Shown: piece by piece, positions 32,583 through 52,978 of the stretch
How positions within the stretch are numbered: position 1 is the stretch's first letter
Layout: every line of letters starts with the position of its first letter
DNA from: Lachnospiraceae bacterium
GTDB taxonomy: Bacteria; Bacillota; Clostridia; Lachnospirales; Lachnospiraceae
Direction: 5' to 3'
Length of the DNA: 55,367 bases
Assembly (NCBI GenBank): GCA_017431345.1
Contig: JAFRLH010000062.1
Location: 1-55,367 of the forward strand
Program-made: the position numbers and the translations under genes
The notes under the pieces: generated by a model
What the model was told of the DNA's origin: nothing
The model's database searches: none
Seen by the model: only the letters and a program-made list of their open reading frames with translations

Positions 32583-32603
32583 TTTATTAATTCGCTTAAC
32601 AAA
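32583..32603 (+). promoter_or_regulatory. candidate ROK operator upstream of GRE1
   Basis: TTTATTAA-TTCGC-TTAACAAA is a 21-bp imperfect palindrome (half-sites of 8 bases, spacer of 5). It matches the sites at 36737, 48203, 50638 and 52958. Here it sits just upstream of the presumed -35 box. Confidence 0.6.
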
Positions 32604-32637
32604 AACGGTTTCATTTCCTGCCCATTCCTGCTATAGT
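32600..32637 (+). promoter_or_regulatory. GRE1 promoter with overlapping cre-like site
   Basis: TATAGT at 32632-32637 is the likely -10 box, with TTTCAT at 32609-32614 as a poor -35 (17-base spacing). CAAAAACGGTTTCA (32600-32613) matches 12 of 14 positions of the CcpA cre pattern and covers the -35 region. That would put GRE1 under carbon catabolite repression. Confidence 0.5.
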
Positions 32638-32685
32638 ATGTATACCTCAGAAGTCTCATTACTATTCCGGAAAGGTGATCGTGTT

Positions 32686-34665
32686 ATGAGTCCTGAATTA
32701 TCCTGTTTATACGAGCTGACTGCAAATCTGAAAGAACATCGAAAGTATCGGCATCCCGTCCGCGAAGATCTCGCTTCCGCCTATGCTGCGGCAGGTCTCC
32801 CTCCGGAAGAACGCGTCATCCGCAGATTCGAATATCTGTGCAGAACCGAGACACCGGTCATTTTTCCCGGAGAAAGGATCTGCTTCCTGCGCACTTCGGA
32901 GAATCTTCCCGACCTGTTCACTCCCGAAGAATGGGACTCGATCAGGGAGAACCATTACATTCATGAGCTTGGTTTCCATTCCAACCTCTGTGCCGACTAT
33001 GAAAAGATCCTGCAGCACGGGCTGCTGGCATTCAGAACGGATACAAACGCCAGAAGCATAGACGCTTTGCTGGCACTGACGGAAAGATACCGGCAGGAAG
33101 CCCTGAAAAAAGGCCGGGAGGATATCGCTTCCGTCCTTTCGCGTGTTCCTGCTTACGGTGCCCGCACCTTACGGGAAGCCATGCAGTCTTTTCGTATCTT
33201 AAGTTTTGCACTCTGGCTCGAAGGCAATTATCACAACAACATCGGCCGTCTCGACAAATTCATGGGACCGTATATGGAATCCGACATTGAAAACGGCCTG
33301 CTGACCGAACAGGAAGCCTTTGATCTCCTTTGTGAGTTTTTCCTGACCTTTAACCGCGACAGTGATCTGTACCCCGGGGTCCAGCAGGGCGATAACGGAC
33401 AGAGTATGATGCTCGGAGCCCTTCCGGACCGGGAAAACGGCTTCTCCCGTTTTTCCATGCTGTGTCTTAAGGCGAGCCATGAACTGAAACTGATCGATCC
33501 CAAGATCAACGTCCGGGTAAACAAAGATACACCGGATGACATCTTCACTTCCTGCAGTGAACTGACAAAAGCCGGTCTCGGATTTCCGCAGTATTCCAAT
33601 GATGACGTAGTCATTCCCGGTCTGGAAGCACTCGGCTATTCACCGGAAGACGCCTCTGACTATACGGTTGCCGCCTGCTGGGAATATATCATCCCCGGCG
33701 TCGGCGGAGATATTCCGAATATCTGTGCGCTGTCATTTCCCGGCATCGTCGATACCTGCCTTCACAGGGATCTGCCCGGTTGTAAGACGATGACCGATTT
33801 TCTCGGGTGCATAAAAGAAGAGATCCGCCGGAAATGTGATGAACTGACGGATATCAGAAATGTCTGGTTTGTTCCCTCTCCGATGCTGTCAACCATGATG
33901 GATTATGAAAACGGCGTTCCACGCTACCGGAATTTCGGTATGCACGGTGTCGGCGCTTCCACTGCGGTGGATTCCCTGACTGCCATAGAAAAGTATGTGT
34001 TTGACGAAGAAACGGTAAGCGCAGCTGAACTGATCGCTGCAGTGGATGAGGATTTTGCGAATGCCCCCGAGCTGCTCCATAAACTTCGCTTTGAGACGCC
34101 CAAACTCGGCTGCGATTCCGACCGGGCCGATGCACTTCTGGAATGGCTGCTCGGCACTTTTTCCGATGAACTTGCCGGAAGGCGCAATGAATACGGCGGG
34201 ATCTGGCGGGCCGGAACAGGATCTGCCATGTACTATCTCTGGTCAGCGGATGAGATCGGCGCGTCACCTGACGGACGCAGAAGAGGAGAACCTTTTGCAG
34301 CGAACTATTCCGTAAGCCTGTTCGCAAAACCGGAAGGCCCCTTCTCCGTACTGGCATCCATGACAGCGCCGGATCTGAAGAAAGTGATCAACGGCGGGCC
34401 GCTTACACTGGAATTCCATCAATCGATGTTCAACACCCCCGAAGCAGTTTATCAGGTCGGACAGTTCGTCAAACGGTTCATTACCCTTGGCGGCCATCAG
34501 CTTCAGCTGAATGCTGTCAATGCTGAAACGCTGAAAGACGCAAAAGCCCATCCCGAAAAATATCCTCATCTGATCGTACGGATCTGGGGCTGGAGTGCCT
34601 ATTTCACCGAACTGGAAGAAGCCTATCAGGATCATGTCATAAGAAGGCAGGAATACTGTCTGTGA
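32686..34665 (+). CDS. glycyl radical enzyme, pyruvate formate-lyase family (GRE1)
   Basis: This is an oxygen-sensitive radical enzyme of 659 residues, short for the family (usually 750-850). The thiyl-radical Cys331 sits in VAACWEY with Glu333 in the CxE position, as in eliminase/dehydratase-type GREs rather than true pyruvate formate-lyase (Cys-Cys). The glycyl radical site is Gly635 in VRIWGWSAYF, followed by QDHVIRRQ. The ATG at 32686 has GGAAAGGTGAT upstream. It is followed after 44 bases by its activase. Neighbouring kinases, aldolases and reductases suggest a phosphorylated or free polyol or sugar substrate, which is inferred. Confidence 0.88.
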   Translation: MSPELSCLYELTANLKEHRKYRHPVREDLASAYAAAGLPPEERVIRRFEYLCRTETPVIFPGERICFLRTSENLPDLFTPEEWDSIRENHYIHELGFHSNLCADYEKILQHGLLAFRTDTNARSIDALLALTERYRQEALKKGREDIASVLSRVPAYGARTLREAMQSFRILSFALWLEGNYHNNIGRLDKFMGPYMESDIENGLLTEQEAFDLLCEFFLTFNRDSDLYPGVQQGDNGQSMMLGALPDRENGFSRFSMLCLKASHELKLIDPKINVRVNKDTPDDIFTSCSELTKAGLGFPQYSNDDVVIPGLEALGYSPEDASDYTVAACWEYIIPGVGGDIPNICALSFPGIVDTCLHRDLPGCKTMTDFLGCIKEEIRRKCDELTDIRNVWFVPSPMLSTMMDYENGVPRYRNFGMHGVGASTAVDSLTAIEKYVFDEETVSAAELIAAVDEDFANAPELLHKLRFETPKLGCDSDRADALLEWLLGTFSDELAGRRNEYGGIWRAGTGSAMYYLWSADEIGASPDGRRRGEPFAANYSVSLFAKPEGPFSVLASMTAPDLKKVINGGPLTLEFHQSMFNTPEAVYQVGQFVKRFITLGGHQLQLNAVNAETLKDAKAHPEKYPHLIVRIWGWSAYFTELEEAYQDHVIRRQEYCL

Positions 34666-34709
34666 CCGCCCGCGGCGGTTCAGACACCGGCAGTCAGGAG
34701 ATGCGGGAA

Positions 34710-35465
34710 ATGGACGGCATACTATTCGATATCAAGCAGCTGGCGATCCATGACGGACCCGGACTGCGTACAACTGTCTTTTTCAAAGGCTGTCCGCTGC
34801 GATGCCGCTGGTGCCATAACCCGGAGGGACTTTCTCCGGCGCCGCAGCTGATGTATAAAAAAACCTCCTGTACGCATTGCGGTCTGTGCCGGAAGCCCTG
34901 CACGCATGAAGAATGCCGCCCGTTCGGAAGATGTCTTCATATCTGTCCGAACAATCTGCTGACCGTATCCGGCAGGCGGATCGGAGCTGAGGAACTTGCC
35001 GCCCGTCTGGCAAGAATCAACAGGATCTCGCACGGAGGCGTGACGTTTTCCGGCGGCGAGCCGCTGATGCAGGCGGCTTTCCTGAAGGAACTGATCCCGC
35101 TGATCCGGCCTTTTGTCCATGATCTGGCGATCGAAACATCAGGCTATGCGGATCCGTCGGTCTTTCATGAGATCACGGAAGAGATGGATCACATTTTCAT
35201 GGATATCAAGCTCGCGGATCCCTCCATGCACAGAGAGCATACCGGCGTTTCCAATGAACTGATCCTGCAGAATCTTACTTCCCTTTACGGAAGAACAAAC
35301 GTGACCATTCGCACACCGCTCATCCCCGGTATTACGGATACGCCGGAGAATCTTTCCGCAATCAAAAAGCTCATAAGAGATCTCCCTCATGAGCTTCTGC
35401 CTTATAATGAATTTTCTCCCGTAAAATATGAGATGCTCGGCATGGAATACCCGCTGAAACGGTAA
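34710..35465 (+). CDS. glycyl radical enzyme activase with ferredoxin insert
   Basis: This radical SAM enzyme installs the glycyl radical on GRE1. The SAM-cluster motif CPLRCRWC lies near residues 28-35 with NPEG after it. Six more cysteines (CTHCGLCRKPC onward to HICPNN) mark the inserted two-cluster region of eliminase-class activases. GGEPL and DIKLADPSMH are typical later motifs. A GTG at 34662 overlaps the GRE1 stop, but AGGAG at 34696-34700 points to the ATG at 34710 (251 residues). A terminator overlaps its stop codon. Confidence 0.9.
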   Translation: MDGILFDIKQLAIHDGPGLRTTVFFKGCPLRCRWCHNPEGLSPAPQLMYKKTSCTHCGLCRKPCTHEECRPFGRCLHICPNNLLTVSGRRIGAEELAARLARINRISHGGVTFSGGEPLMQAAFLKELIPLIRPFVHDLAIETSGYADPSVFHEITEEMDHIFMDIKLADPSMHREHTGVSNELILQNLTSLYGRTNVTIRTPLIPGITDTPENLSAIKKLIRDLPHELLPYNEFSPVKYEMLGMEYPLKR

Positions 35466-35480
35466 GCGGGTATTTTTTAT
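35446..35480 (+). terminator. terminator of GRE1-activase operon, overlapping the stop codon
   Basis: AATACCCGCT (35446-35455) pairs with AGCGGGTATT (35465-35474), a 10-bp stem with a 9-base loop, and TTTTATC follows. The left arm lies in the last codons of the activase. It also covers the 3' end of the convergent ROK gene. Confidence 0.88.
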
Positions 35481-36616
35481 CCTGCCAGGATCCTGTCAAA
35501 CACCACATCTGCTGCAGCCAGGATCCTGATCCCTGCATTGTTCGATGCGGATCTTACACGGACAGGCTGTCTGTTTCTTGTCAGGATCCTCTGATTGACA
35601 AGCTCTTCTATGACCGGTGACAGTTTGCCTGCTTCATACCAGATATCACCTGTCAGCAGTACGGTATCTATACTGATCAGATTGGTAAGGGTAACGATGC
35701 CTGCGCTCAGATATTCAGCTTCCTGGTACATGATCTCCACGGCGTCTTCGTCCCTGCCGATATTATTCATCAGTTCTTCCCAGTTTCTGTAACCTGTTCC
35801 ATACAGAATGTGCGGCATGGCCGCGTAGGCTTCCAGACAGCCTATATTTCCGCATGAGCATTTTCTGCCATGCATATCGATGGAAACATGCCCGATCTCA
35901 CTGGTATAATAACCGGCGCCCTTCAGGATCTTTCCCTTTGATATCACGCCGGATCCGACACCGGAATCGACCAGAAGCAGAAGAAAGTTCTCGCTGCCGC
36001 CCGCTTCCGGCTTTCCCTGATGATATCTCGCAAGGCAGGTCGCATTGTTCTCCAGAAAAACGGGAAGTCCCAGTGCCTCTGAAAGTGCCGGTCCGATGAG
36101 AGTATTATGCCACAGATCGAATCTCGGAGGATTCAGGATCTCTCCGCCTTCGCCGTTCAGGGGACCGGGTGCCGAGATCCCGATGCCGAGGATCTTTTTC
36201 TGTTCAATGCCTGATCGTTCGATCAGATCTGACACAGCGCTTCCGAGAAAATTCAGTTTTCTTCCCGGAACGATGTCATTCAGTTTTACTTCATCCTGAA
36301 TGACAAGATTCTCCGTCATATTCGTGATCCCGATGGAACATCCGTCGCGGTTAAGATAGATCCCGACCGCATACCCGGCCTCGGGATTGATCCGGAGCGG
36401 TGTCGGCGTTCTTCCCCGCATCCCCGCTACCGGTTCCATTTCGACAATGATCCCTTCCTCGATCAGCTCAGCGGTGATCAGGGAAGCCGCTGCCCTCGTA
36501 AGCCCCATTCGCCTTGCCAGTTCGGCTCTGGAGAGCGGTTCTTTCCTTAAAAGCCTTAACAGAAGATTCCGGTTGTATTTTTTTGTGTATTCCGCATTTC
36601 TTGTTCTGATTGCCAT
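35477..36616 (-). CDS. ROK family transcriptional regulator
   Basis: An N-terminal winged HTH (SRAELARRMGLTRAAASLI, about residues 28-46) is joined to a ROK sugar-kinase-like domain. That domain has GIGISAPGPLNGEGG, LENNATCLA and the zinc motif CSCGNIGCLEAYAA. In XylR/NagC-type repressors the ROK domain senses a sugar. The start at 36616 follows GGGG; an earlier ATG adds seven non-conserved residues. It lies between the two glycyl radical enzyme operons and is the prime candidate to bind the repeated palindromes of the island. Its own promoter is consensus-like. Confidence 0.9.
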   Translation of the reverse strand: MAIRTRNAEYTKKYNRNLLLRLLRKEPLSRAELARRMGLTRAAASLITAELIEEGIIVEMEPVAGMRGRTPTPLRINPEAGYAVGIYLNRDGCSIGITNMTENLVIQDEVKLNDIVPGRKLNFLGSAVSDLIERSGIEQKKILGIGISAPGPLNGEGGEILNPPRFDLWHNTLIGPALSEALGLPVFLENNATCLARYHQGKPEAGGSENFLLLLVDSGVGSGVISKGKILKGAGYYTSEIGHVSIDMHGRKCSCGNIGCLEAYAAMPHILYGTGYRNWEELMNNIGRDEDAVEIMYQEAEYLSAGIVTLTNLISIDTVLLTGDIWYEAGKLSPVIEELVNQRILTRNRQPVRVRSASNNAGIRILAAADVVFDRILAG

Positions 36617-36639
36617 ATCTGCCCCGGTGCCCGACAATA

Positions 36640-36698
36640 CTGTCAGCTTCTTAACAATTAATTAATTGGATTATATTACAGTCCCAAAACCATGTCAA
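36640..36698 (-). promoter_or_regulatory. promoter of the ROK regulator with half-site downstream
   Basis: On the minus strand TTGACA (36698-36693) and TATAAT (36675-36670) are exactly 17 bases apart. Just downstream lies ATTGTTAA (36658-36651), then CTGACA, a one-and-a-half copy of the island operator with a spacer one base short. An AT palindrome (AATTAATTAATT) partly overlaps. Autorepression is plausible. Confidence 0.6.
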
Positions 36699-36736
36699 TT
36701 TTCCCTGCTGCAAATCATGATTCAGGCATTTTTTAT

Positions 36737-36778
36737 TTTGTTAATTCATTTGACATTTGCGCATTGCTTTGCTATCAT
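36737..36778 (+). promoter_or_regulatory. operator-promoter of the activase2-GRE2-kinase operon
   Basis: TTTGTTAA-TTCAT-TTGACATT (36737-36757) carries the -35 box TTGACA in its right half. The -10 box TATCAT (36773-36778) follows after 17 bases. This arrangement recurs at 48.2, 50.6 and 52.9 kb. Confidence 0.65.
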
Positions 36779-36800
36779 TCATTATATAAGGAAGGGAAAA

Positions 36801-37529
36801 ATGAAACTCAATATCTTTCAAAAAGGTTTTAATTACTCTCAGGACGGCCCCGGAAACCGTCTGATCTACCATCTTTCCGGGTGCAATATGCGTTGCCCGT
36901 GGTGTTCCAATCCGGAAGGCCTGAAGCCTTCCGCCGGAAGCCCCTATACCGTCGAAGAACTGACCGGGGAGGTCTTGCGAAGCAGCATGCTTTTTTTTGA
37001 TGGCGGCGGGCTTACGCTTACAGGAGGAGAGTTCAGTCTCCAGCTGCCCGCAGCGTCAGCGCTGCTGGCTTCCGTTCACGGCAGCGGAATAGATACCTGC
37101 GTTGAGACGAACGGAACTGCCCCTGCCCTGCAGACAGTTTTTCCTTCACTCGATCACCTGATCATTGACGTGAAGCATTATGATGAGAACCGCCTGTCTG
37201 CAGTATGCGGAGCCGGACTGAAAAACACGCTTTCCAATCTGGCCTGTGCACTGGATTTAAAAATGGATGTGCTGATCAGGATCCCTCTGATCGGAGGATT
37301 CAATGCTTCTCCGGAGGACGCCGCACGGTTTGCAGAATTGTTCTGCAGTCTGGACGTGCCCGGCCATGCACGGGTCGAAGTCCTGAAATACCACGAATTC
37401 GGAAAAGACAAATATCAAAAACTCGGCCTTCCGTACACGATGACAGAAGAGGCTTTTATATCAACGGAGTGTTTTCACACATTCAGGGATATTCTGGTCT
37501 CCCATGGAATAGAACCTGCAACAACCTGA
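36801..37529 (+). CDS. glycyl radical enzyme activase without ferredoxin insert
   Basis: This is a radical SAM protein of 242 residues with the CNMRCPWCSNPEG cluster motif near 28-40. Unlike the first activase, it goes directly to VEELTGEVL without the extra cysteines, as in PFL-activase-like short forms. TLTGGEF and IDVKHYD motifs follow. It starts after AAGGAAGGG and lies 19 bases before GRE2, its presumed target. It is the first gene of a three-gene operon. Confidence 0.88.
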   Translation: MKLNIFQKGFNYSQDGPGNRLIYHLSGCNMRCPWCSNPEGLKPSAGSPYTVEELTGEVLRSSMLFFDGGGLTLTGGEFSLQLPAASALLASVHGSGIDTCVETNGTAPALQTVFPSLDHLIIDVKHYDENRLSAVCGAGLKNTLSNLACALDLKMDVLIRIPLIGGFNASPEDAARFAELFCSLDVPGHARVEVLKYHEFGKDKYQKLGLPYTMTEEAFISTECFHTFRDILVSHGIEPATT

Positions 37530-37548
37530 ATCCCGGAGGAATCTCATC

Positions 37549-39924
37549 ATGAAACTGTTTGAAAATACCACCACAGACTATATTTCAGCGCTTGCCAAAG
37601 ATCTTTACAATGAAGAACGCGAAGAACACAAGATCCTGAACGGATGGCTGCTTTCCCGCGAGACTGCGCTTGACACAGCGGAAACGCTGAAGGACGTTCC
37701 TGCGGAGATGCGTGCTGCAGAAGAACTGGAAAAGATCATTGAGACCATGCCGCTTGAGATCAGCCGGTATGCTGTCTTTGCCGGCACACAGCGGGATGCC
37801 TTTGCAGCAAGCTATGCGCTGATCAATCCTGCCTTCCAGGTAGAAACATTTAAAGGCTACTGCGATCCGCTGGAGGTTTACAATTTTGCCAGTCCCGACG
37901 GTGATGTTACGACCGAACGCATTGAGAACATGCGCCGCAGAATGGCTGAGACAGACTGGGTCAGATCACTTAACGCCGTATATTCCGAGAACAATGTTTA
38001 TACGGATGAGGTAGCTTTTTTCGTAGAGCATGTCACCGGCCATGTCGTTCCGGATTTCAGACAGGCGCTTAAGCACGGTGTTCTTTATCTTATCGATGAG
38101 ATAGACGGCAGACTGAAAGATCCCTCCATACCGAAGAAAAAACGCATCAATTATGAAGCAATGAAAACGGCTCTTTCCTGTTGTGTCACCCTTGCCCGCA
38201 GATATTCCGATCTGGCCGGTTCCATGGCGCTTTCCGCGGCGGGAGAAGCCCGGGCACGGCTTGAAATGATGCGGGATAATCTTCTCAAAGTTCCTGCGTA
38301 CGGCGCAGGCTCCCTCATGGAAGCCCTGCAGTCCTATCTGATCCTGTGGCAGGTCATGTGTATAGAGCAGGCGCCGAATCCTTTCGCTTTTTCCGTAGGA
38401 AATGCTGACCGGATCTTTGAACCGTACAGGCAGATGGACAATGCTTCCAGGGAGGAAGCCGCCGCTCTTTTCAAACATTTTCTTGTATTCTATAATGTAG
38501 GCGAGCGGTCCTGGGCAATCTCGCAGAACGTCCTTCTTGGCGGCCGCGATCTTTCCGGGAACGATCTTACGAATCCCATGACGTATGCGATCCTGGATGC
38601 CTATTATGATATGATCCTGCCCCAGCCGATCCTGTCCGTAAAGCTGCACAGGAACACGCCGGAAGAATTCTATGCAAGTCTCGGCAGATTTCTTTTTACC
38701 CCCGGCTGCCTTACGCCGTCCTTCTTCAATGACGACAGTCTTTTTGAAACGCTGAAGGAGCACGGGATCGCGGAAGAAGATCTTCCGGATTATTCCGTAG
38801 CCGGCTGTCAGGAACCGCTGATCATGGGAAAGGACAACGGGAATACGACCAACAGCTGGCTCAACCTCGGAAAGATCCTGGAACTGACCCTGAACGATGG
38901 TGCATCCATGCTGACGGGTCATCAGATCGGCGTAAAGACCGGAAAGAGTACGGAGGAAATCCTGGCCGGCCTGAAAGAGAATTTCTACACCAACTGTGAA
39001 TTTTATATTGACAAAATGTGCGAGGCTGCAAACGGTGCATCCAGGGCGCTCTCTCTTCTTCCGGTACCGTTCCTTTCCTGTTTCATGGGCGGGATCGATA
39101 CCGGGATCGACATGAGGGATCCCGAAGAACAGGGGACCAGATACAACGGCAGCGGATGTCTGATCCACGGGCTTTCCACCGCAGCCGATTCCCTGATCGC
39201 CGTGGAGCATCTGCTCCGGGAAAGGCCGGAAGACGCCGGCCGGCTCATCGATGCACTGAAAGCGGATTTCAGGGGATATGAAGACCTGAAGGAATACCTC
39301 AGCGCGTGCCCGAAATACGGCAACAATATCCCGGAAGTTGATCTCGAAACAGCGGAGATGGCGGAGAAAATCTCTCAGATGGTCCGGGCCAGGAAAAACT
39401 ATCTGGGGAATCCTTTCCGTCCGGACTGGAGCTCGCCTTCCACCCATCTGCTGTACGGTTACTGGGTAGCCGCGACGCCTGACGGACGTTCTGCCAGAGA
39501 TATGCTGAATTACGGAGTCGATCCTCTTTACGGGACATCTGATTCCGGGCTTGGCTTCAGAGTCCTTTCGATGATGCACCTGCCTTACCGGGAAATGAAC
39601 GGAGGCATGGCCTGTCATTTCGGGATCGATCCGAAATTCTTCACCGGCAGTTCTTTCGAAGAAAAGGGCATCCAGTTCCGGGACAGGGTCATGAAACCGC
39701 TGTTCTTCAACCCAAAGCTTGACGGACGCGCCCCCTTCTACCTGTATGTCAATGTAACAACAGCCGAGACCTTAAGAAAAGTGCTGGCAGAGCCGAAGAA
39801 ATATGCTCCGAACGGCGTATATATCATGCGCATCCACGGAACATTTGTGAATTTCCTGGATCTGTCCCCGGCGATCCAGCAGGATATCATCACCCGGCTC
39901 GATCCCATGTCGACCGCCTGTTAA
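37549..39924 (+). CDS. glycyl radical enzyme, divergent (GRE2)
   Basis: This 791-residue PFL-superfamily protein has the thiyl Cys420 in VAGCQEPLIMGKDNGN, with Glu422 in CxE position. The C-terminal loop reads MRIHGTFVNF then IQQDIITR. Gly764 is the radical site, and the spacing and VNF/QQDIITR residues resemble true pyruvate formate-lyase. However, the usual aromatic residue after the Gly is Thr. GRE1 and GRE2 are only distantly alike. The ATG follows CGGAGGA. With an FGGY kinase 15 bases downstream, the substrate may be a polyol, sugar or sugar acid. Confidence 0.87.
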   Translation: MKLFENTTTDYISALAKDLYNEEREEHKILNGWLLSRETALDTAETLKDVPAEMRAAEELEKIIETMPLEISRYAVFAGTQRDAFAASYALINPAFQVETFKGYCDPLEVYNFASPDGDVTTERIENMRRRMAETDWVRSLNAVYSENNVYTDEVAFFVEHVTGHVVPDFRQALKHGVLYLIDEIDGRLKDPSIPKKKRINYEAMKTALSCCVTLARRYSDLAGSMALSAAGEARARLEMMRDNLLKVPAYGAGSLMEALQSYLILWQVMCIEQAPNPFAFSVGNADRIFEPYRQMDNASREEAAALFKHFLVFYNVGERSWAISQNVLLGGRDLSGNDLTNPMTYAILDAYYDMILPQPILSVKLHRNTPEEFYASLGRFLFTPGCLTPSFFNDDSLFETLKEHGIAEEDLPDYSVAGCQEPLIMGKDNGNTTNSWLNLGKILELTLNDGASMLTGHQIGVKTGKSTEEILAGLKENFYTNCEFYIDKMCEAANGASRALSLLPVPFLSCFMGGIDTGIDMRDPEEQGTRYNGSGCLIHGLSTAADSLIAVEHLLRERPEDAGRLIDALKADFRGYEDLKEYLSACPKYGNNIPEVDLETAEMAEKISQMVRARKNYLGNPFRPDWSSPSTHLLYGYWVAATPDGRSARDMLNYGVDPLYGTSDSGLGFRVLSMMHLPYREMNGGMACHFGIDPKFFTGSSFEEKGIQFRDRVMKPLFFNPKLDGRAPFYLYVNVTTAETLRKVLAEPKKYAPNGVYIMRIHGTFVNFLDLSPAIQQDIITRLDPMSTAC

Positions 39925-45035: not shown

Positions 45036-45070
45036 TCTGAAGCCTCCTTTATGAAAAATATGCAGCCGCC

Positions 45071-45901
45071 TCAAACCTTTACGGCGCCGGCCGTCATTCC
45101 CGAAATAAAGTATTTCTGGAAGAACAGCGCGATCACGATAACAGGCAGAGAGCCGAAAACACTCATTGCGATTATCTGATTCCATTCAAAAGCGTACTGT
45201 CCCATCAGCGACGCAATACCGATCGGAACGGTGCGCATATCATTCGTCCGTGTCAGTGTCAGTGCGTAAAGATATTCATTCCAGCACTGAATAAAGGTAT
45301 AAAGCCCTACGGAAACAAGTCCGGGCACACAGGACGGAACAAGGACGCCCCATAAAGCCCTGAATCTCGATCCCCCGTCTATCATTACCGCTTCATCAAG
45401 CTCTTTCGGCATTGTGTTCATATACCCTGTCAGCATCAGGATCGCGTACGGAAGCGTAAAACAGACATACGTGAGCACCAGTGCAAGATAGGTGTTGTAA
45501 AATCCGATCGTCACCATCAGGACAAGATAAGGGATCAGAAGGGTGATCGGCGGTATTGCCTGCACACCGATGATAATGGTATTGATCGTCTTCTTTCCGG
45601 GGAAGTTGAACCGGGAAAACGAATACGCGGCAAGCAGCGCTACCACCAGCGTACAGCACACCACGATCGCCGCTATTCCATAGGAATTTATGAAGAACCG
45701 GATCTTTTCGGGATCGCTGAGCACAGCCTTGTATGCATCAAAGCTGAAACTTTCATCGATCAGTTTCGGCGGATAGGCAAAAATATTTGCATTTGCCTTA
45801 AACGAACACGATACCAGCCAGAGCACAGGGAGGCCGCAGAACAGTGCCGCCAGGATCAGGCCGATCCACAGTAAGACTGTCTGGTGTTTTTTTGTCTTCA
45901 T
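45071..45901 (-). CDS. ABC sugar transporter permease (MalG type)
   Basis: This is a cytoplasmic-membrane permease of 276 residues with six helices. The EAA loop reads ELDEAVMIDGGSRFRALWG near residues 168-186 and contacts the ATPase. It belongs to the carbohydrate uptake (CUT1) class. It starts 12 bases after the MalF-like permease stop. Confidence 0.92.
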   Translation of the reverse strand: MKTKKHQTVLLWIGLILAALFCGLPVLWLVSCSFKANANIFAYPPKLIDESFSFDAYKAVLSDPEKIRFFINSYGIAAIVVCCTLVVALLAAYSFSRFNFPGKKTINTIIIGVQAIPPITLLIPYLVLMVTIGFYNTYLALVLTYVCFTLPYAILMLTGYMNTMPKELDEAVMIDGGSRFRALWGVLVPSCVPGLVSVGLYTFIQCWNEYLYALTLTRTNDMRTVPIGIASLMGQYAFEWNQIIAMSVFGSLPVIVIALFFQKYFISGMTAGAVKV

Positions 45902-45913
45902 CCTGACTGCCTC

Positions 45914-46798
45914 CTATTCCCTGAACTGATTCCTGACATAGAATACTGCCAGGATCGTACAGATAATCAATATCAGCACTGCAGCTGCAGAAGCCTTTGC
46001 GTATTGGAAACTCGTAAACGCCGTCGTATAAACATAGGTACTCATCATTTCCGTCGCATGCGACGGCCCGCCTGCCGTCAAAAGCCAGATCAGGGAGAAG
46101 TTCTGCGTTGTCCAGATAAAATCCAGCATCGCTATGCTTATCAGGATCGGCTTCAGCTGCGGGAGCGTCATGTCAAAAAACTGATGGATCCCGTTCGCGC
46201 CGTCAATGCTTGCCGCTTCATAGAGATCCGAAGGAATACCCTGCAGTCCCGCCAGGATACTGATCATGTAAAACGGGTAACCGGCCCAGATATTGATAAA
46301 GGTCAGGACATGAAGTACGATCTTCCTGTTGCTCATCCATTCGATCTTTACCGGCATGCTTTGGGTCAGTGAAAGAAGATAATTTACAATTCCGCTCGGA
46401 TTGAGCAGCAGCTTCCACAGGATGGCAATAACAGTGGCGTTGAACATCCAGGGAAGCAGATAAATGATCCTGAAGACTGCCTTCGGCACATTATGAAGAC
46501 GCTTTGCATTTACCATAAGCGCCAGGCTCATTCCGATCAGCAGATGAAATATCACATTAAGGATAACGAACCAGGCTGTATTCTTCATGGAAAGGCGGAA
46601 CACCTTATCCTTAAGAACTGCGGAATAATTTGCCAGTCCCACGAACTGGGGATCGGGTTTTATGACCACATTGTCAAAGAAAGAATAGCCGATTGCCATG
46701 AAGATCGGTACAAATAAAAGCCCGGCAATCAGTACGATTGTCGGCAGCAGATACATATATGGCTGTAAGGCTTTCCGGATTCTGTTCCTGCTTTTCAT
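45914..46798 (-). CDS. ABC sugar transporter permease (MalF type)
   Basis: This is a six-helix CUT1 permease of 294 residues with the EAA loop DLYEAASIDGANGIHQFFD near residues 195-213. It forms the translocation channel with the MalG-type partner. A stem-loop between the binding-protein gene and this gene probably lowers permease expression relative to the binding protein. Confidence 0.92.
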   Translation of the reverse strand: MKSRNRIRKALQPYMYLLPTIVLIAGLLFVPIFMAIGYSFFDNVVIKPDPQFVGLANYSAVLKDKVFRLSMKNTAWFVILNVIFHLLIGMSLALMVNAKRLHNVPKAVFRIIYLLPWMFNATVIAILWKLLLNPSGIVNYLLSLTQSMPVKIEWMSNRKIVLHVLTFINIWAGYPFYMISILAGLQGIPSDLYEAASIDGANGIHQFFDMTLPQLKPILISIAMLDFIWTTQNFSLIWLLTAGGPSHATEMMSTYVYTTAFTSFQYAKASAAAVLILIICTILAVFYVRNQFRE

Positions 46799-46857: not shown

Positions 46858-46871
46858 CGCAAACCAGTTAT

Positions 46872-48131
46872 TTAGTTGTATGCAGCATCATACTGTTCCT
46901 GTACGTCTGCAAGCATTTCATCCACGGTAGTATCGCCGTCCAGATAGAGGATCAGCGCTTCATCGAGGATCTTTTCAAGGTTCTCTGCGGTAGGCAGGGA
47001 GTTGAATTCAGATTTTCCGTAGGTGGTCTTATAGACTTCTTCGATAGTCTTGAAGGCATCGGAAGAATTCTCATAGTTGGCTTCCGCTTTTGTATTTACG
47101 ACGAATCCGCCTGCTGTTACGCACAGTTCAGCATTGACCTGCTGGTCAAGCAGATAAGCGATCCACTTCGCAGCTGCTTCGGGATTTTCGCTCTTTGCAG
47201 AAATTCCGCAGGCCCAGTTGTTCATACGGCAGTAAGCCTGTCCGTCGTAATCATCCTTATGAGGCATATTGATATAAACGATGTTCATATCGGGAGCCTG
47301 CTGGGAGATATCATTCAGATGGGCAACGGAGTCGGGCATGAAAGCGATCCGTCCGTTTACGAATTCCTCAACTTTGTCAGCGTCGGTCATGGTGTACATG
47401 CCGGGGATGCAGAGACCGGAATCATTGAGATCCTTGAACATCTCGCAGGTAGCCTTGAAAAGCTCATTGTCTTTGATGAAAGGCTTTCCTTCTTCCGTAA
47501 GGATCGTGCCGCCGGAATTCCAGCAGAATGCGGTGAAGTTCTCAACACAGGTCGCATTATCCGTGCTCATGTTCATTCCGAAGCCGTATACATTGTTGGC
47601 CGGATCCGTGAGTTTCTGACAGTCTTCTTTCAGCTCTGTCCAGGTCTTGGGCGGCTCGTTGATACCGGCTGCTTTCAGAAGATCCATGTTCACAGCCATC
47701 AGGTTCGGGAAGTTCACGATCGGCTGTGCATAGACCGTTCCGTTGACAGAGATCTGCATGGAAAGATCTGCGGGATCAAATCCGATGCTGTTAAATGCTG
47801 CGCCGAGATCCGCAAGCAGGCCCTGCGTAGCATAATCGTAGATCCAGGGACCATCCAGTGCAACGACATCCGGCAGTGTTCCGGCTGCGGCGGAAGCCTG
47901 CAGCATGGTCTTTGTGTCAGCATAAGGGTTGCTCAAAAGTTCTACGGTAATACCGGTCTCTTCTTTGAATTTGTCAGCCAGGCTCTGAAGATATCCGTCA
48001 GGCATCTCTTTTCCGAACCACTGTACGAATTCAATTGTCGGACCTTCCGCTGCGGCAGCTTGTGCCGGAACAGGTGCAAAAAGCGACAATGTCATAGCCA
48101 TTACTACAAGAAATGATAACAGTTTTTTCAT
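46872..48131 (-). CDS. extracellular sugar-binding protein of the ABC importer
   Basis: This family 1 solute-binding protein has 419 residues. It has a signal peptide starting MKKLLSFLVVMAMTLSLF and a cleavage site near PAQA-AAAE. The mature protein has the usual FVQWFGKEMPDGYLQSLADK start and VVALDGPWIYDYA. No cysteine follows the hydrophobic stretch, so it is not a lipoprotein, which is odd for a monoderm importer. The start at 48131 follows AAGGAGGA; residues upstream in the frame are not conserved. It is the first gene of the seven-gene operon, controlled by the palindromic site at 48203. Confidence 0.9.
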   Translation of the reverse strand: MKKLLSFLVVMAMTLSLFAPVPAQAAAAEGPTIEFVQWFGKEMPDGYLQSLADKFKEETGITVELLSNPYADTKTMLQASAAAGTLPDVVALDGPWIYDYATQGLLADLGAAFNSIGFDPADLSMQISVNGTVYAQPIVNFPNLMAVNMDLLKAAGINEPPKTWTELKEDCQKLTDPANNVYGFGMNMSTDNATCVENFTAFCWNSGGTILTEEGKPFIKDNELFKATCEMFKDLNDSGLCIPGMYTMTDADKVEEFVNGRIAFMPDSVAHLNDISQQAPDMNIVYINMPHKDDYDGQAYCRMNNWACGISAKSENPEAAAKWIAYLLDQQVNAELCVTAGGFVVNTKAEANYENSSDAFKTIEEVYKTTYGKSEFNSLPTAENLEKILDEALILYLDGDTTVDEMLADVQEQYDAAYN

Positions 48132-48181
48132 AGTGCTCCTCCTTATTGGTCTTCGACTCGCCTTCATGCGGTCACAATGCC

Positions 48182-48223
48182 ATTATATTTTTATATGCCG
48201 CTTTCGTCAAGTGCCTTGACAAA
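48182..48223 (-). promoter_or_regulatory. operator-promoter of the ABC importer operon
   Basis: On the minus strand TTTGTCAA-GGCAC-TTGACGAA (48223-48203) contains the -35 TTGACG. TATAAT (48187-48182) follows after exactly 17 bases. The divergent region 48132-48460 (329 bases) also holds the leader of the plus-strand ADP-dependent kinase, with a possible TATTAT box at 48290-48295, and nothing else I can identify. Confidence 0.68.
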
Positions 48224-48460
48224 ATATTTTATCATCATTATTTTGCGTTTTTCATGACATTTTTTTTGGGGTGCTCTGGTCTTTTGTTGTATTATATTGC
48301 TTTTTCAATCTTTTTGATGATGCAGTATACCCCTTAAATTTTCATTGTTATCTATTCTTATGAAAATTTTCAGCGAAACTTCCCTTGCATTTTCTTTCTT
48401 TTTATTGTACTGTTCGATCAGATCATGGAATTTGCCTTTTATGAAAAAGCAGGAGTCGTT

Positions 48461-49687
48461 ATGGGTAATCTTATTGCAGCCGGTTTTCAGAACACCGTCG
48501 ATTTTGAACTGGATTGGGATCCCGGTACGCTCGCCGGGCTCTGCCGTATGTATGGACTTTGCAGAAGTGAGATCAGGGAATACGCTCCCATCAACAGCGA
48601 ACGGGAACTGCTGCTGACCCTTCTGTTTCATATGCAGAACGGAAGCGGGAGTGAATGTCTTGCCGTTTCCAGCAAAATTACCAGAGATTTTGCCGCCCGT
48701 TTCGAGATGACCATCACGCTCGGAGGCACTGCCGTCCGTGCAGCCATGGCTATTGAAAAACTGGGGTATAAGAGTTCCATCCATGCCTGCAGCCTAAACA
48801 GGCATTTCAGGGCGCTGATCCCGGAGAATGTCACCTGGGTCTCTTCGGTAAGCGATGAAGGGGAGGATTTTCATCCTCATGTCATCGTTCAGTATCCCGG
48901 GAATTGCACCCTGCAGGCAAATGATATTGAGATAACAACAAAACGACCCAACCGGGTCATTTTTACCTGCGATCCGCCAAGCGAAAAACTCATCATTACC
49001 GATGATTTTGCAGATCTGGCTGCTGATGCAAAAGTCTTTCTGACGGCCAGTTATAATATCGTAAAACACAGGGAGGATCTCGTCGACAGGCTCAATACCA
49101 CGCTGAAGATCATGGACAGACTGAGCCCCGCCTGTTTTAAGCTGATGGAGGACGGTTGCTTCAGGGATCCCCGCATGCGTGAAATCATCACTGAGATGCT
49201 GGTGCCCCGGCTGACGCTTTTCAGCATGAATGAAGATGAACTGCAGGACCGCATCGGCAGAAAGATCGATATCCTGAATCCTGTGCAGGTCGCGGAGGCG
49301 GTCAAAGAAGAATATGCTGTTCTGAATGTACCGATCCTGGTCTGCCATTCCGCCTGCTGGGCGCTGGCTTACGGGAAAGGAGCAGGCAGGATCAGAGAAG
49401 CCCTGGAAGGCGGTGTGACGATGGCTTCCACCCGCTTCCGTCTGGGAGATCATTACGATCTGTCCGATTACAGGGAGACCGCCGGCCTTCCTCCCAAAAA
49501 AGAATCGCTCGCTTTCATCGCATCCGTCAAAGAGCTTCTTTCCGCAGAGGAACTGGTAATCGTTCCCGCAAAAGATCTGTCCGGCGTCCCGCAGCCTGTC
49601 ACGATCGGGCTTGGCGATTCCTTTATCGGAGGAATGCTGCCGCTTCTGCTCCCGGATGAAATACGGGAAAGCGCACGATTTTCCTGA
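48461..49687 (+). CDS. ADP-dependent sugar kinase family protein (ADP-PFK/GK type)
   Basis: This 408-residue protein resembles the ADP-dependent glucokinase/phosphofructokinase family. Its motifs are ITLGGTAVRAAMAIEKLGYK, TASYNIVKHREDLVDRL, LFSMNEDELQDRIGR and the C-terminal GLGDSFIGGMLPLL, with the catalytic Asp in GD. Such kinases use ADP and give AMP and a sugar phosphate; they are best known from archaea and occur in some bacteria. I take the ATG at 48461, which has AGGAG five bases upstream. The RpiR gene converges on it. Sugar specificity is unknown. Confidence 0.78.
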   Translation: MGNLIAAGFQNTVDFELDWDPGTLAGLCRMYGLCRSEIREYAPINSERELLLTLLFHMQNGSGSECLAVSSKITRDFAARFEMTITLGGTAVRAAMAIEKLGYKSSIHACSLNRHFRALIPENVTWVSSVSDEGEDFHPHVIVQYPGNCTLQANDIEITTKRPNRVIFTCDPPSEKLIITDDFADLAADAKVFLTASYNIVKHREDLVDRLNTTLKIMDRLSPACFKLMEDGCFRDPRMREIITEMLVPRLTLFSMNEDELQDRIGRKIDILNPVQVAEAVKEEYAVLNVPILVCHSACWALAYGKGAGRIREALEGGVTMASTRFRLGDHYDLSDYRETAGLPPKKESLAFIASVKELLSAEELVIVPAKDLSGVPQPVTIGLGDSFIGGMLPLLLPDEIRESARFS

Positions 49688-49695
49688 AGGCGGGA

Positions 49696-50592
49696 TCACA
49701 TTCTTTTTGCATTGATCAGATCCGCAGTCAGTCTGTATCTGTCGATCGCCGATTCATCCGCGGCGGCGACGCACATCAGATACAGACTGTCGACAATGGC
49801 ATACTGAGGCAGATTTTCCGCGTCCGCTTCATAACAGACGATCTGCTGATCTTTCAAAAAACTGCTGTAGTCATAACCGGTCAGAAGCGTAATATCCGCG
49901 CTCTGATCGACCACAGATCCTTTTGCAGATGTGATCGCCACCGTCGCCGCGCCGTTCTTTCTGGCAATCCCCAGACATTCCACAACAGAGGCGGTTCTGC
50001 CCATGTTGCTGATTCCTACCACAAGATCTTCTTCCGTGCAGCTGGCCGCTGCGCCGACCATACTGTGGTAATCCGAATAACAGTTTGCAACGATCCCCAG
50101 TCTCAGGAACCTGCTGCAGGCGTTCATTCCTGCCAGATAGGACCGTCCTTCGCCCAGGAACAGGACCTGTCTGGCGCTCATGATCATGGCGACCACTTCA
50201 CGCATGAGATCATAATCCATCAGTGCCAGCGTATCCTTCAGCATTTCTATCTCGGACTGGATAACAAATCTGCAGATCGATTCCGGACTGCTGTTCTTCC
50301 GGAATTCACTGTTGATCAGCGTTTCGGACGGTTTCCGGATATTCCTGGCGCTTTCAGGCATCTCCTCCAGGAAATAGCGGACGGCAGCGGAGAATTCCTT
50401 GTAGTTCCTGAATCCCAGCACATGGATAAATCTGGTCACGGTCGCATTGCTGACACCGCTTTCCGATGCCATTTTCCCGATCGTCATTTTTCGCAGGCGG
50501 TCTTCATTGGACAGCACTACGTCAGCCACTCTTCTCATGGCCGGATTCATCTGCGGATAGTTCAGTTTGGTTTCGAGAAATGGGTTGATCAT
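49696..50592 (-). CDS. RpiR/MurR family regulator with SIS domain
   Basis: This 298-residue regulator has an N-terminal RpiR helix-turn-helix (about residues 1-77; ESGVSNATVTRFIHVLGFRN) and a SIS domain (about 120-260; VLFLGEGRSYLAG and VVGISNMGRTASVVECL) that binds phosphosugars. It is divergent from aldolase-b and lies next to the island operator at 50638. It may respond to a phosphorylated intermediate of the pathway and control aldolase-b or the ADP-dependent kinase. Confidence 0.88.
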   Translation of the reverse strand: MINPFLETKLNYPQMNPAMRRVADVVLSNEDRLRKMTIGKMASESGVSNATVTRFIHVLGFRNYKEFSAAVRYFLEEMPESARNIRKPSETLINSEFRKNSSPESICRFVIQSEIEMLKDTLALMDYDLMREVVAMIMSARQVLFLGEGRSYLAGMNACSRFLRLGIVANCYSDYHSMVGAAASCTEEDLVVGISNMGRTASVVECLGIARKNGAATVAITSAKGSVVDQSADITLLTGYDYSSFLKDQQIVCYEADAENLPQYAIVDSLYLMCVAAADESAIDRYRLTADLINAKRM

Positions 50593-50637
50593 AGTTCCTC
50601 CGGATTCAGAAAACAGATAAACAGAACGTCTGTCATA

Positions 50638-50680
50638 TTTGTTAACTCTCTTGACAAATAAGCTCTAAGAAAATTATAAT
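50638..50680 (+). promoter_or_regulatory. operator-promoter of aldolase-b
   Basis: TTTGTTAA-CTCTC-TTGACAAA (50638-50658) is the best copy of the island palindrome. TTGACA (50651-50656) is the -35 box and TATAAT (50675-50680) is the -10 box, with 18-base spacing. Confidence 0.72.
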
Positions 50681-50762
50681 ACTTTTGTTACATCCGGTGC
50701 AAGGTCATTCCTTCATCTGTCTCCTGCCCGGTGCAAATCGTGTTATAAGGAAGGGAATGCTT

Positions 50763-51650
50763 ATGCTGTTGAACATGTCTTCACTCCTTAAAGCGGCTAA
50801 CGAAAACAATTTCGCGATCCCCGCTTTCAACACTCCTACGCAGATGATCTTGAGAGGTGCCATCGAAGCCGCCGAAGAGACCGGAACACCTGTCATCATT
50901 GAAGTCCATCCCGACGAACTGGAATTCGCACGCAGTTCCTTCATCACCATGCTTGTGGAAGAAGCCAGAAAAAGCACAGTGCCCGTATGCATTCATATGG
51001 ATCACGGCTCGACCCTTTCACAGATCATGACTGCCATCCAATGCGGCTATACTTCCGTCATGATCGACGCTTCTTCGAAACCTTTTGATGAAAACGTTGC
51101 GATCTGCAGGGAAGTCGTACGTCTTGCCCATATGGTCAATGTATCCGTGGAAGGCGAACTGGGCACGATCGGGACGACTTCGGTATCCCAGGACGTCACC
51201 TCAACGACGGAGATCCACTATACCGAACCGGAAGAAGCCGCCGAATTCGTCGAACGGACCGGCGTGGATACGCTTGCCGTCGCGATCGGGACCTGCCACG
51301 GCCTGTATCCGAAAGGGATGACTCCTACGCTTCAGCTGGACAGGCTCAGGGCAATCAAAAAACGCCTCCCCATTCCCCTTGTTCTTCACGGCGGATCAGC
51401 CAATAAAGACGAAGAGATCGCAGAAGCATCCAGGTGCGGCATTAACAAGATCAATATTTCAAGCGATATAAAAGACCCTTTTTATCAGAAATGCAGGGAA
51501 GTGCTGCAGGATCCGTATATCCGCGAACCGGGCGAGATCTATCCGCCCTGCATAGAAGTCATGAAGGATGTCATGCGTCATAAATTCGACCTCCTGGGCT
51601 GCACCGGCAAAGCAGACCTCTATGACTACAGCATTTTAAGACCCATGTAA
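50763..51650 (+). CDS. class II (zinc) aldolase (aldolase-b)
   Basis: This 295-residue class II aldolase has zinc histidines in CIHMDHGST, GTCHGLYP and LVLHGGSA, with EGELGTIGTTS and MIDASSKPFDENV. HGGSANKDEEI and NINKINISSDIKD-like features place it near ketose-bisphosphate or tagatose aldolases. The start at 50763 has AAGGGA about 7 bases upstream; an ATG two codons earlier is possible. It carries its own strong operator-promoter and is monocistronic, ending at a bidirectional terminator. Confidence 0.88.
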   Translation: MLLNMSSLLKAANENNFAIPAFNTPTQMILRGAIEAAEETGTPVIIEVHPDELEFARSSFITMLVEEARKSTVPVCIHMDHGSTLSQIMTAIQCGYTSVMIDASSKPFDENVAICREVVRLAHMVNVSVEGELGTIGTTSVSQDVTSTTEIHYTEPEEAAEFVERTGVDTLAVAIGTCHGLYPKGMTPTLQLDRLRAIKKRLPIPLVLHGGSANKDEEIAEASRCGINKINISSDIKDPFYQKCREVLQDPYIREPGEIYPPCIEVMKDVMRHKFDLLGCTGKADLYDYSILRPM

Positions 51651-51661
51651 CATGTGCAAAG

Positions 51662-51707
51662 AAAAAGAGGGCGGCATTCCATCCCCCCGAAAAGCCGCTC
51701 TCTTTTT
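51662..51707. terminator. bidirectional terminator between aldolase-b and the ABC ATPase
   Basis: AAAAAGAGGGCGGC (51662-51675) pairs with GCCGCTCTCTTTTT (51694-51707), a long stem with one G-T pair and an 18-base loop. A and T runs lie in the stem on each side. It ends at the last base of the ATPase stop codon. Confidence 0.85.
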
Positions 51708-52894
51708 CAAAACAGATTCTTTTCCGTTTTCTTGTCAAAGAAATGCATCAGGGACGGTTTAAAGGTATAGCATACTTCCCTGTGTCCCGCTTCAAGAAGC
51801 GGATCATCCGATTCGGAAACAGGAACCACGGCAACGATATCCTTTCCATCCGAATTCATATGCAGATGCAGCTCGCTTCCCATCATTTCGGATACATCGA
51901 TCCTGGCTTTGATCCCGTCATCACTCAGGCTGATGTGAACCGGACGAACGCCTACGATCACTTCTTCGGGCACCTTCTCCATAGTCTTAAGCACAGCCTG
52001 CTTAGCTTCCGGGATATCGAACTCCCTTCCCTGAACACGGACTCTGTATCCGTCTTCATGCTTCACGAACGTCCCTTCGAAGAAATTCATCTGCGGCGTG
52101 CCGATAAATCCGGCAACAAAGAGATTGGCGGGATGGGAAAAGACCTCCTGCGGTTTTCCGACCTGCTGGATAAACCCGTCCCGCATGATGACAATGCGGT
52201 CGCCCAGCGTCATCGCCTCCACCTGGTCATGCGTAACATACACGAAAGTCGTATCGATCTTTTCTCTCAGCTTGATGATCTCCGCTCTCATCTGGTTCCT
52301 GAGTTTGGCGTCAAGGTTGGAAAGCGGTTCATCCATCAGGAAGACTTTGGGGTGGCGGACGATCGCGCGTCCGATTGCCACGCGCTGTCTCTGTCCTCCG
52401 GAAAGTGCTTTCGGCTTTCTGTCCAGGTAATCGGTGATGTCAAGGATGGCAGCTGCCTCTTCCACCTTTTCCTTTATTTCCGCTTTGGATTTTTTCTGCA
52501 GTTTGAGTGAATATGCCATGTTTTCAAAAACTGTCATATGCGGATACAGTGCATAATTCTGAAAAACCATGGCGATATCCCTCTCTTTCGGCGCATCGTC
52601 ATTAACAAGTTTTCCGTCTATATACAATTCTCCGCCGCTGATCTCCTCCAATCCTGCGATCATACGCAGTGTAGTGGATTTTCCGCAGCCGGAAGGGCCT
52701 ACCAAAACGATAAATTCCTTGTCCGCTATATCGAGATTAAATTCCTGTACAGCGACCACGCCTTCTTTCGTCACCTGAAGATTGGCTTTTTTCTCGGCGA
52801 ACCGATCCGTCGTCTTTTTCTCTTTCTGCTTCTTTTTCTCGCTCCCGTTAAAAGGGTAAACTTTTTTAATGTTGACTAATTTTACCTCGGCCAT
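51707..52894 (-). CDS. ABC transporter ATPase, MsmK/UgpC type
   Basis: This sugar-importer ATPase has Walker [10 protein letters not shown], signature LSGGQRQR, Walker [13 protein letters not shown] and a C-terminal TOBE-type regulatory domain (GVRPVHISL). At 395 residues it is longer than usual because about 30 Lys/Glu/Thr residues (KKKQKEKK and following) are inserted after the first strand. It lies 3.6 kb from the permease operon but shares the palindromic operator, so it probably powers that importer and possibly others. Confidence 0.92.
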
Positions 52895-52936
52895 GTCCGT
52901 CTCCCACTAAAGTGTATTCACAGCTCCTACGCTCTT

Positions 52937-52978
52937 ATAATACATAATCCGCGATATTTAGTCAATCGAATTTACATA
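52937..52978 (-). promoter_or_regulatory. operator-promoter of the ABC ATPase gene
   Basis: On the minus strand TATGTAAA-TTCGA-TTGACTAA (52978-52958) resembles the island palindrome with a few mismatches. Its TTGACT is the -35 box and TATTAT (52942-52937) follows after 17 bases. The transcript would start about 35 bases before the coding start. Confidence 0.6.

Follow-up and report, generated by a model that had tools for sequence, protein, structure and literature searches.

Organization of the locus

We analyzed a 55,367-nucleotide stretch of a draft genome of a Lachnospiraceae bacterium (GenBank assembly GCA_017431345.1, contig JAFRLH010000062.1, positions 1 to 55,367; hereafter the window), in which five 21-bp palindromes precede genes for glycyl radical enzymes (GREs), their activases, and proteins of sugar uptake and metabolism. 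Judging from the sequence comparisons below, it is highly likely that these palindromes are the operators of a ROK-family repressor encoded at 35480–36616 on the minus strand, and the genes behind them very probably form one jointly controlled set. The sites follow the consensus TTTGTYAA-N5-TTRACAAA, to which we scored matches out of the 16 arm positions. All five had been proposed in a sequence-only reading of the window and are present where it placed them, each with two 8-bp arms around a 5-bp spacer.

32583..32603, plus strand: putative operator 1, TTTATTAATTCGCTTAACAAA, 15/16, matrix rank 3; upstream of GRE1
36737..36757, plus strand: putative operator 2, TTTGTTAATTCATTTGACATT, 14/16; right half is the −35 box of the activase2-GRE2-kinase promoter; position also occupied in relatives
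48203..48223, minus strand: putative operator 3, TTCGTCAAGTGCCTTGACAAA, 15/16; minus-strand TTGACG is the −35 box and TATAAT the −10 box of the importer operon
50638..50658, plus strand: putative operator 4, TTTGTTAACTCTCTTGACAAA, 16/16; TTGACA is the −35 box and TATAAT the −10 box of aldolase-b
52958..52978, minus strand: putative operator 5, TTAGTCAATCGAATTTACATA, 13/16, the weakest; minus-strand TTGACT-17-TATTAT promoter of the ATP-binding cassette (ABC) ATPase
35480..36616, minus strand: ROK repressor with winged helix-turn-helix (HTH), ROK domain and zinc-site cysteines; probable start ATG at 36616
36670..36698, minus strand: ROK promoter, TTGACA at 36693–36698, 17 bp, TATAAT at 36670–36675
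36639..36658, no strand assigned: doubtful partial operator copy between the promoter and the start of the ROK gene, scoring 12/16 only if the spacer is set to 4 bp

The last of these features had been described as a partial operator copy behind the ROK promoter. A resembling sequence does lie there, but its need for the shorter spacer makes it doubtful as an operator, and autoregulation of the ROK gene through it is unsupported on the same grounds. The remaining genes are those that the sequence-only reading had named (GREs, activases, FGGY kinase, importer, RpiR, aldolase and ATPase), together with an ADP_PFK_GK-type kinase gene that it had not included.

32686..34662, plus strand: GRE1, glycyl radical enzyme
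34662..35462, plus strand: activase 1 (radical SAM)
36801..37526, plus strand: activase 2 (radical SAM), start ATG at 36801
37549..39921, plus strand: GRE2, glycyl radical enzyme with conserved GCQEPLIMG and RIHGTFVNFLDL motifs
39940..41268, plus strand: FGGY-family sugar kinase
41319..42242, minus strand: aldo-keto reductase 1, importer operon
42242..43111, minus strand: class II ketose-bisphosphate aldolase a, importer operon
43129..44097, minus strand: PfkB-family kinase, importer operon
44100..45185, minus strand: aldo-keto reductase 2, importer operon
45074..45901, minus strand: sugar ABC permease 1
45917..46798, minus strand: sugar ABC permease 2
46875..48167, minus strand: sugar-binding protein, first gene of the importer operon
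48425..49684, plus strand: ADP_PFK_GK-type sugar kinase, divergent from the importer; a 47.6% identical copy has the same arrangement in genome G085
49699..50592, minus strand: RpiR-family regulator
50757..51647, plus strand: class II ketose-bisphosphate aldolase b, ATG at 50757, 297 amino acids, no internal stop
51710..52894, minus strand: UgpC/MalK-type ABC ATPase (NF008653, 450.8 bits, cutoff 432)

Minus-strand frames at 48305–49699 are probably spurious because they have no Pfam match and overlap with the ADP_PFK_GK-type kinase gene. Operator 3 lies upstream of this kinase gene as well as of the importer, making the kinase a possible further target, and the divergent RpiR gene, 45 bp from operator 4, is a possible target of that site.

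At four of the five sites the right half coincides with the −35 box of a fitting promoter, as had been proposed: TTGACA-17-TATCAT at 36737, TTGACG-17-TATAAT (minus strand) at 48203, TTGACA-18-TATAAT at 50638 and TTGACT-17-TATTAT (minus strand) at 52958. The site at 32583 instead lies directly upstream of a weak promoter-like sequence. Of 14 sites from the window and its relatives, nine show a coincidence of the right half with the −35 box of a suitable promoter, so that repression by promoter occlusion is likely. The same overlap would be expected if no regulator were involved and the similarity were simply that of strong TTGACA promoters in A+T-rich intergenic DNA. Two of 15 background ROK loci (L132 and L140) also contain a 14/16 match, and a match at this level is therefore weak evidence by itself in DNA of such composition. 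The left half, however, is not a promoter element and is equally conserved; only these five places in the window reach the matrix scores given below, and GRE2 operons from genomes without the ROK have no site of at least 13/16. We give an explanation by promoter sequence alone almost no credence.

The ROK protein matches the ROK domain PF00480 with 127.3 bits (cut-off 22.9), and its N-terminal winged HTH matches HTH_24 with 23.5 bits (cut-off 21.9) and aligns with those of Mlc and Lmo0178. Its motif GHVSIDMHGRKCSCGNIGCLE, a CxCGxxGC with a preceding GH that we take to be the zinc site, contributes residues G242, H243, C253, C255, C260 and E262, which are invariant in seven ROK proteins. The nearest solved proteins by sequence are 1z05, which is named only as a ROK family member, Escherichia coli Mlc and Lmo0178, and the XylR-type label that had been attached to the operators is not established. 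No xylose isomerase or xylanase was found among 17 Pfam-scanned genes at 32485–52894, so that the xylose isomerase or xylan targets of an XylR-type regulon are absent from them, and the match of the FGGY kinase to XylB is weak (84 bits against a cut-off of 380).

Frequency of the operator motif

A consensus built from the window and its relatives could be circular, and we therefore derived a weight matrix exclusively from six sites in other genomes (G051, G179, G214, G165, G646 and G015). With this matrix the five sites rank first to fifth in the 55-kb window, with scores of 27.5, 23.2, 22.5, 19.9 and 16.4, and the next place after them has 13.6. A first-order Markov sequence of 20 Mb contained 0, 0, 2 and 2 places, respectively, that reached the scores of the first four sites, and 12 that reached the score of the fifth, the site at 52958; for this last site 0.03 occurrences are thus expected per window and about 2 per 3.27 Mb.

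We also scanned the organism's own genome, a 3.27-Mb draft in 94 contigs. With at most one mismatch to TTTGTYAA-N5-TTRACAAA it contains three places, all of them in the window, and one match to a reversed control pattern; operator 4 is the sole copy with no mismatch. A search for TTTGTTAA-N5-TTGACAAA with up to two mismatches finds seven places, of which four fall within the 18-kb stretch described here. Both the mismatch scans and the relatives-only matrix show an excess of the motif over chance, a point on which the sequence-only reading had staked its proposal. Among 27 genomes scanned, eight have perfect matches: six of the seven in the first operator-bearing ROK group defined below (G000, G051, G179, G214, G165 and G646; G015 has one mismatch), and 2 of the 20 others (G049 and G651). 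The perfect match in G049 precedes a small gene that reads by eye like another HTH protein (L106). A trap for such scans lies within GRE2 itself, where the codons for the motif FVNFLDL mimic the operator (13/16 at L051:4582 and 12/16 at L054:12248).

Co-occurrence of operator and ROK gene in related genomes

Searches with the ROK protein found a match at E ≤ 1e-40 in 18 of 299 genomes of the family (its own included) and at E ≤ 1e-55 in 3 of 392 genomes of the order, and the protein was not found in any of the 10 other genomes of the genus. A search of genome contigs with GRE2 yielded 18 loci. The unit that recurs across relatives consists of the ROK gene and activase2-GRE2-FGGY.

Within 250 bp upstream of activase2, a site of 13/16 or better is present in nine of the ten genomes whose ROK belongs to one of two operator-bearing tree groups, compared with none of ten genomes without the ROK (E ≤ 1e-40) and none of four with a ROK of the sister group; the contrast of 9/10 with 0/10 has a one-sided Fisher p of 6e-5. 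In the tenth ROK-group genome (L056), a 13/16 site lies upstream of its ROK-activase2-GRE2 operon. The contrast persists when G179 is left out (8/9 against 0/10, p = 1e-4) and when only the four class-level genomes are counted (4/4, with sites of 16, 14, 14 and 13; p = 0.001), the consensus having been formed in part from four of the ten ROK-group genomes (the window, G051, G179 and G646). Loci L046 and L055, where the upstream region is missing, and L061, from a genome with a sister-group ROK, were excluded from the group without the ROK. Conservation of the motif before orthologous genes thus parallels the presence of the ROK gene, as the proposal predicts.

The placement of the sites is also conserved. 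In G051 and G299 the site lies between the ROK gene and activase2; in G646 it directly precedes activase2, with the ROK gene on another contig; and in G654 it precedes a ROK gene that shares an operon with activase2-GRE2. In G214 and G165, operons that combine the ROK gene with a gene for a ManA-like protein or for a PfkB kinase are preceded by perfect sites, and G015 has a 15/16 site before a sugar ABC operon about 8 kb from its ROK gene. Fifteen more distant ROK loci of the family (L030–L044, about 3–4 kb each) contain no site of at least 14/16. A reduced form of the unit is seen in G179 (L065:10297-11940), where a perfect site lies between the ROK gene and a 41-residue piece of activase2 followed by FGGY; no GRE2 was found there within 20 kb.

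A profile of the seven ROKs of the first operator-bearing group, run against 391 genomes of the class, matched 53 at E ≤ 1e-70. Among the matches listed we took 30 loci, one being the window's own and the other 29 covering about 3–4 kb each (14 closer and 15 weaker matches). Within these loci, sites reaching 14 were found at L116 (16) and L124 (14, twice) among the closer and at L132 and L140 (14 each) among the weaker, and L118, L122, L123, L125, L126, L128 and L129 have none of at least 14 within about 4 kb. We then read the wider neighborhoods of 7 of the 14 closer loci (L116–L129), two of which (G926 and G888) were already known to have a site when they were chosen. Four of the seven carry activase2-GRE2, all with a preceding site (16, 14, 14 and 13), two have a site (16 and 14) before another ROK-containing operon, and one has none. 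G926 has a perfect site between the ROK gene and a divergent activase2-GRE2, G888 has sites before both the ROK gene and activase2, and in G922 a 13/16 site lies over the −10 box of activase2. In G925 two sites of the form TTAGTTAA-N5-TTAACTAA precede an operon of activase2, GRE2, an FSA aldolase, FGGY, a beta-lactamase-like protein, a ManA-like protein and the ROK. The other two operons are preceded by a perfect site (16/16) in G750, where HAD and PfkB genes accompany the ROK gene, and by a 14/16 site in G755, where the partner is GH38.

This co-occurrence also bears on Rex. Rex, a redox sensor, often controls fermentation genes. As far as the accessible part of the source goes (PMC5367854), its consensus is TTGTTAA-N4-TTAACAA, with a half-site almost identical to that of the operators, and the Rex-type HTH domain PF06971 is found in the window's own genome and in 9/10 ROK-group against 5/10 no-ROK genomes, a weak trend (one-sided Fisher p = 0.07). 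Clostridial Rex boxes (PMC5367854) differ from our sites, however, in their 4-bp spacer and in belonging to another protein family, and Rex does not track the sites. Across 19 operator regions a spacer of N5 fits best in 17, N9 in two (L056 and L151) and N4 in none, although the regions were picked for N5 sites and this preference is partly built in. With at most two mismatches the Rex box occurs at eight places in the genome, none of them on the window contig, and the window's sites are not boxes of the form TTGTTAA-N4-TTAACAA. G646 combines a 16/16 site and the ROK with no detectable PF06971, and G645, G647, G652, G657 and G658 have PF06971 and GRE2 and no site, with the proviso that these drafts may be incomplete; the domain also occurs in G085. 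That the sites are Rex boxes is very improbable.

Recognition helix and variant operators

In a tree of ROK proteins, the first seven operator-bearing ROKs form one group (support 98/97). In an enlarged tree, eight operator-bearing ROKs fall into a group of nine rows (90/92), the ninth being G922 with its 13/16 site, and the ROKs of G299, G654 and G888, which have variant operators, form a second group (100/96) with G925 as its sister (97/91). A wider group of 23 rows (95/96) also holds G750 and G755, the site-less G672 and G532, and four sister-group rows. The enlarged tree left out L128 (interrupted frame), L129 (identical to L091) and L131–L144; its rows for G750, G755, G922 and G925 are marked 'none', as their sites were found later. 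For frames with an internal stop (L036 and L128), only the open part between stops was used.

The first seven operator-bearing ROKs share an invariant GL[TS]R and S45 in the recognition helix, where other ROK groups have LTQAS, LKQAT, LTKM, LTKT or MSKSA. G672 and G532 have the LTRA helix too, yet no site was seen in them, and the agreement between helix and operator is to be read as a correlation that does not prove contact.

The variant operator TTAGTTAA-N5-TTAACTAA occurs at L072:9427-9447, L056:591-611 (with the right arm TTAATTAA), and L151:1893-1913 and 2015-2035, and in these three genomes the ROK recognition helix reads LTKA instead of LTRA. In two of the four genomes with a sister-group ROK, TAGTTYA-N5-TGAAC-like palindromes lie before activase2 (L045:8972-8992 and L061:9196-9216); these are perhaps, tentatively, a shifted operator of the sister-group ROK with the same spacing.

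Competing regulators and evidence against the ROK assignment

Some observations weigh against the assignment of the sites to the local ROK, and two of them concern other regulators. The RpiR-family regulator (49699–50592) could itself bind the palindromes. The only 16/16 site is the one upstream of its gene, and in G085 an RpiR homologue (45%) stands alongside aldolase-b, activase1, GRE1 and the importer; in this genome, which lacks the ROK, the aldolase-b/activase1 intergenic region carries a 13/16 match with only the left arm intact. An RpiR regulon would show the operator wherever the RpiR-importer module occurs, and this is not the case in G085, the single genome with the GRE1 module: despite its RpiR, GRE1 and importer and with no ROK at E ≤ 1e-40, it has no site above 13/16 in 20 kb, and its importer upstream region reaches 11/16. 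Six importer homologues from genomes without this ROK likewise have no site of at least 14 in loci of 2.7–4.3 kb (one with only 67 bp upstream). Among eight loci that we read with both GRE2 and a site, six have no RpiR-like match and two have distant ones (24–25%; L145 and L056), and before activase2 the sites track the ROK and not RpiR. We consider binding by RpiR improbable. The earlier proposal had singled out RpiR or another regulator as the alternative to exclude, and the distribution of the sites disfavors RpiR, as the spacer length does Rex.

The G085 module (L085) comprises aldolase-b (70.7%), activase1, GRE1, RpiR, an aldo-keto reductase, both permeases, the binding protein and the ADP-type kinase. 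No ROK-GRE2 unit is present in the 20 kb read, where a GRE2 query matches only GRE1 (25%), and of twelve loci searched for aldolase-b the other eleven do not contain it. This module is likely an unmerged form of part of the window locus. A separate RpiR palindrome, sought in two G085 intergenic regions, yielded only A+T-rich noise.

A second ROK of the same genome, on contig C9, might occupy the sites alone or together with the local one. It matches PF00480, and its gene (L002:1548-2690) has a 14/16 site directly upstream (L002:1501-1521). Its recognition helix differs (LSRPTVAAS), its match to the local ROK is weaker than E 1e-40, and the relatives' sites adjoin relatives of the local ROK; we see only a slim chance that the second protein is responsible.

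The other adverse points concern the local ROK and the motif. The ROK gene of the window has only a doubtful site of its own, and G672, whose ROK is fairly close (E = 1.4e-127 with the profile) and has the LTRA helix, shows nothing above 12/16 in 16 kb. Four GRE2 genomes with a sister-group ROK lack this motif, and the ROKs of G750 (16/16) and G755 (14/16) lie outside the nine-row group; as these two fall outside both operator-bearing groups, the set of ROKs marked by the operator is wider than initially delimited and has exceptions. The threshold of 13/16 was lowered from 14 after L145 had been observed (at 14 or above the contrast is 7/10 against 0/10, p = 0.0015). Because the first consensus mixed window and relatives, circularity is avoided only in the matrix test and in the genomes added later. 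Finally, two further places in the window, one within the ROK gene, equal the site at 52958 in match count (13/16), and this site is the weakest of the five both for this reason and because about two such matrix scores are expected genome-wide.

The GRE2 family

GCQEPLIMG[KE]D and the glycyl loop RIHGTFVNFLDL are present in all 20 GRE2 copies examined, namely that of the window and 19 orthologues (14 from loci L045–L060, and L064, L072, L145, L149 and L151); the family is found in drafts labelled Clostridia and Tannerella-type bacteria. The Pfam Gly_radical model does not report the window GRE2, and the family is possibly a functionally new group of glycyl radical enzymes. Near GRE2/ROK units lie kinases, aldolases of class II or FSA type and ManA-like proteins, neighbors suggesting a sugar or polyol substrate that undergoes radical rearrangement or dehydration, phosphorylation and cleavage. 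In three genomes a divergent ManA-like cupin protein is encoded beside the ROK gene (L066:388-1476, L088:79-1125 and L151:8193-9206); that of L088 is identified by N-terminal likeness only, and that of L151 belongs to a GRE2 operon with an FSA-type aldolase.

Discussion

We infer from these observations that the local ROK protein binds the five sites as a repressor. Without inducer, a ROK dimer would sit on TTTGTYAA-N5-TTRACAAA, blocking RNA polymerase at the four window sites where it would cover the −35 box and lying beside the promoter at 32583. The ROK would be released by an inducer, most probably one of the pathway's sugars or sugar phosphates, so that GRE1, activase2-GRE2-kinase, the importer operon, aldolase-b and, weakly, the shared ATPase would be turned on together.

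Such a mechanism is ordinary for ROK repressors; the regulon, the operator and the glycyl radical target appear new within the open-access literature. NagR of Bifidobacterium resembles the system proposed here in being a ROK repressor with palindromic operators before ABC importers and catabolic genes; in the portions of the work available to us, 10 of its 11 operators overlap the −10 or −35 box, and its regulon expanded from a single local pathway to numerous targets (PMC9599254). It differs in serving N-acetylglucosamine (GlcNAc) glycans and in having no glycyl radical enzymes in the regulon table, as far as the same excerpts go (PMC9599254). XylR of Thermotoga and Caldicellulosiruptor is likewise a ROK repressor of sugar import and use, but the available parts of its descriptions deal with xylan and xylose genes and mention no GRE (PMC3750489, PMC8579813). 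A low-scoring XylR site before the shared ABC ATPase gene msmK, described in the accessible text of PMC8579813, is a precedent for the weak site at 52958 before the ABC ATPase. The operator of RokB from Streptomyces coelicolor has similar TTTGTT...AACAAA arms with a T-rich left and an A-rich right end, but its spacing is TTTGTTC-N11-GAACAAA and its targets are novobiocin genes and perhaps amino acid metabolism, according to the part of the report that we could consult (PMC4856308). In the open-access literature, a scope outside which most subscription papers fall, we found no description of this ROK/glycyl-radical regulon and nothing on an anhydroglucitol GRE or on a GRE linked to sugar kinases, and the GRE2 pathway under ROK control looks uncharacterized.

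The widespread core of the system is the ROK gene, the operator and activase2-GRE2-FGGY. Two modules that are separate elsewhere, ROK-GRE2 and RpiR-GRE1-aldolase-b-importer, are joined in the window, with the ROK operator at both. As a possibility somewhat less likely than not, we picture a conserved ROK-operator-activase2-GRE2-FGGY unit controlling an uncharacterized anaerobic sugar pathway, in which GRE2 might act on a sugar or polyol by eliminating water or some other group before kinase and aldolase steps (with an FSA-type aldolase and a ManA-like isomerase in G925). In this genome the ROK may have annexed a GRE1, aldolase-b and importer pathway once under RpiR control, so that a single sugar sensor would govern two radical enzymes that are sensitive to oxygen. 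Because G085 is the sole genome found with the second module alone, any direction given to this expansion is hypothetical.

The locus offers a testable regulon, with its operator defined, for the GRE2 family of glycyl radical enzymes. Since it is the sugars of a pathway that release a ROK repressor, a simple screen of sugars for their effect on ROK-operator binding could reveal the family of GRE2 substrates. The window also presents a case of a repressor that has apparently extended its operator onto a second pathway.

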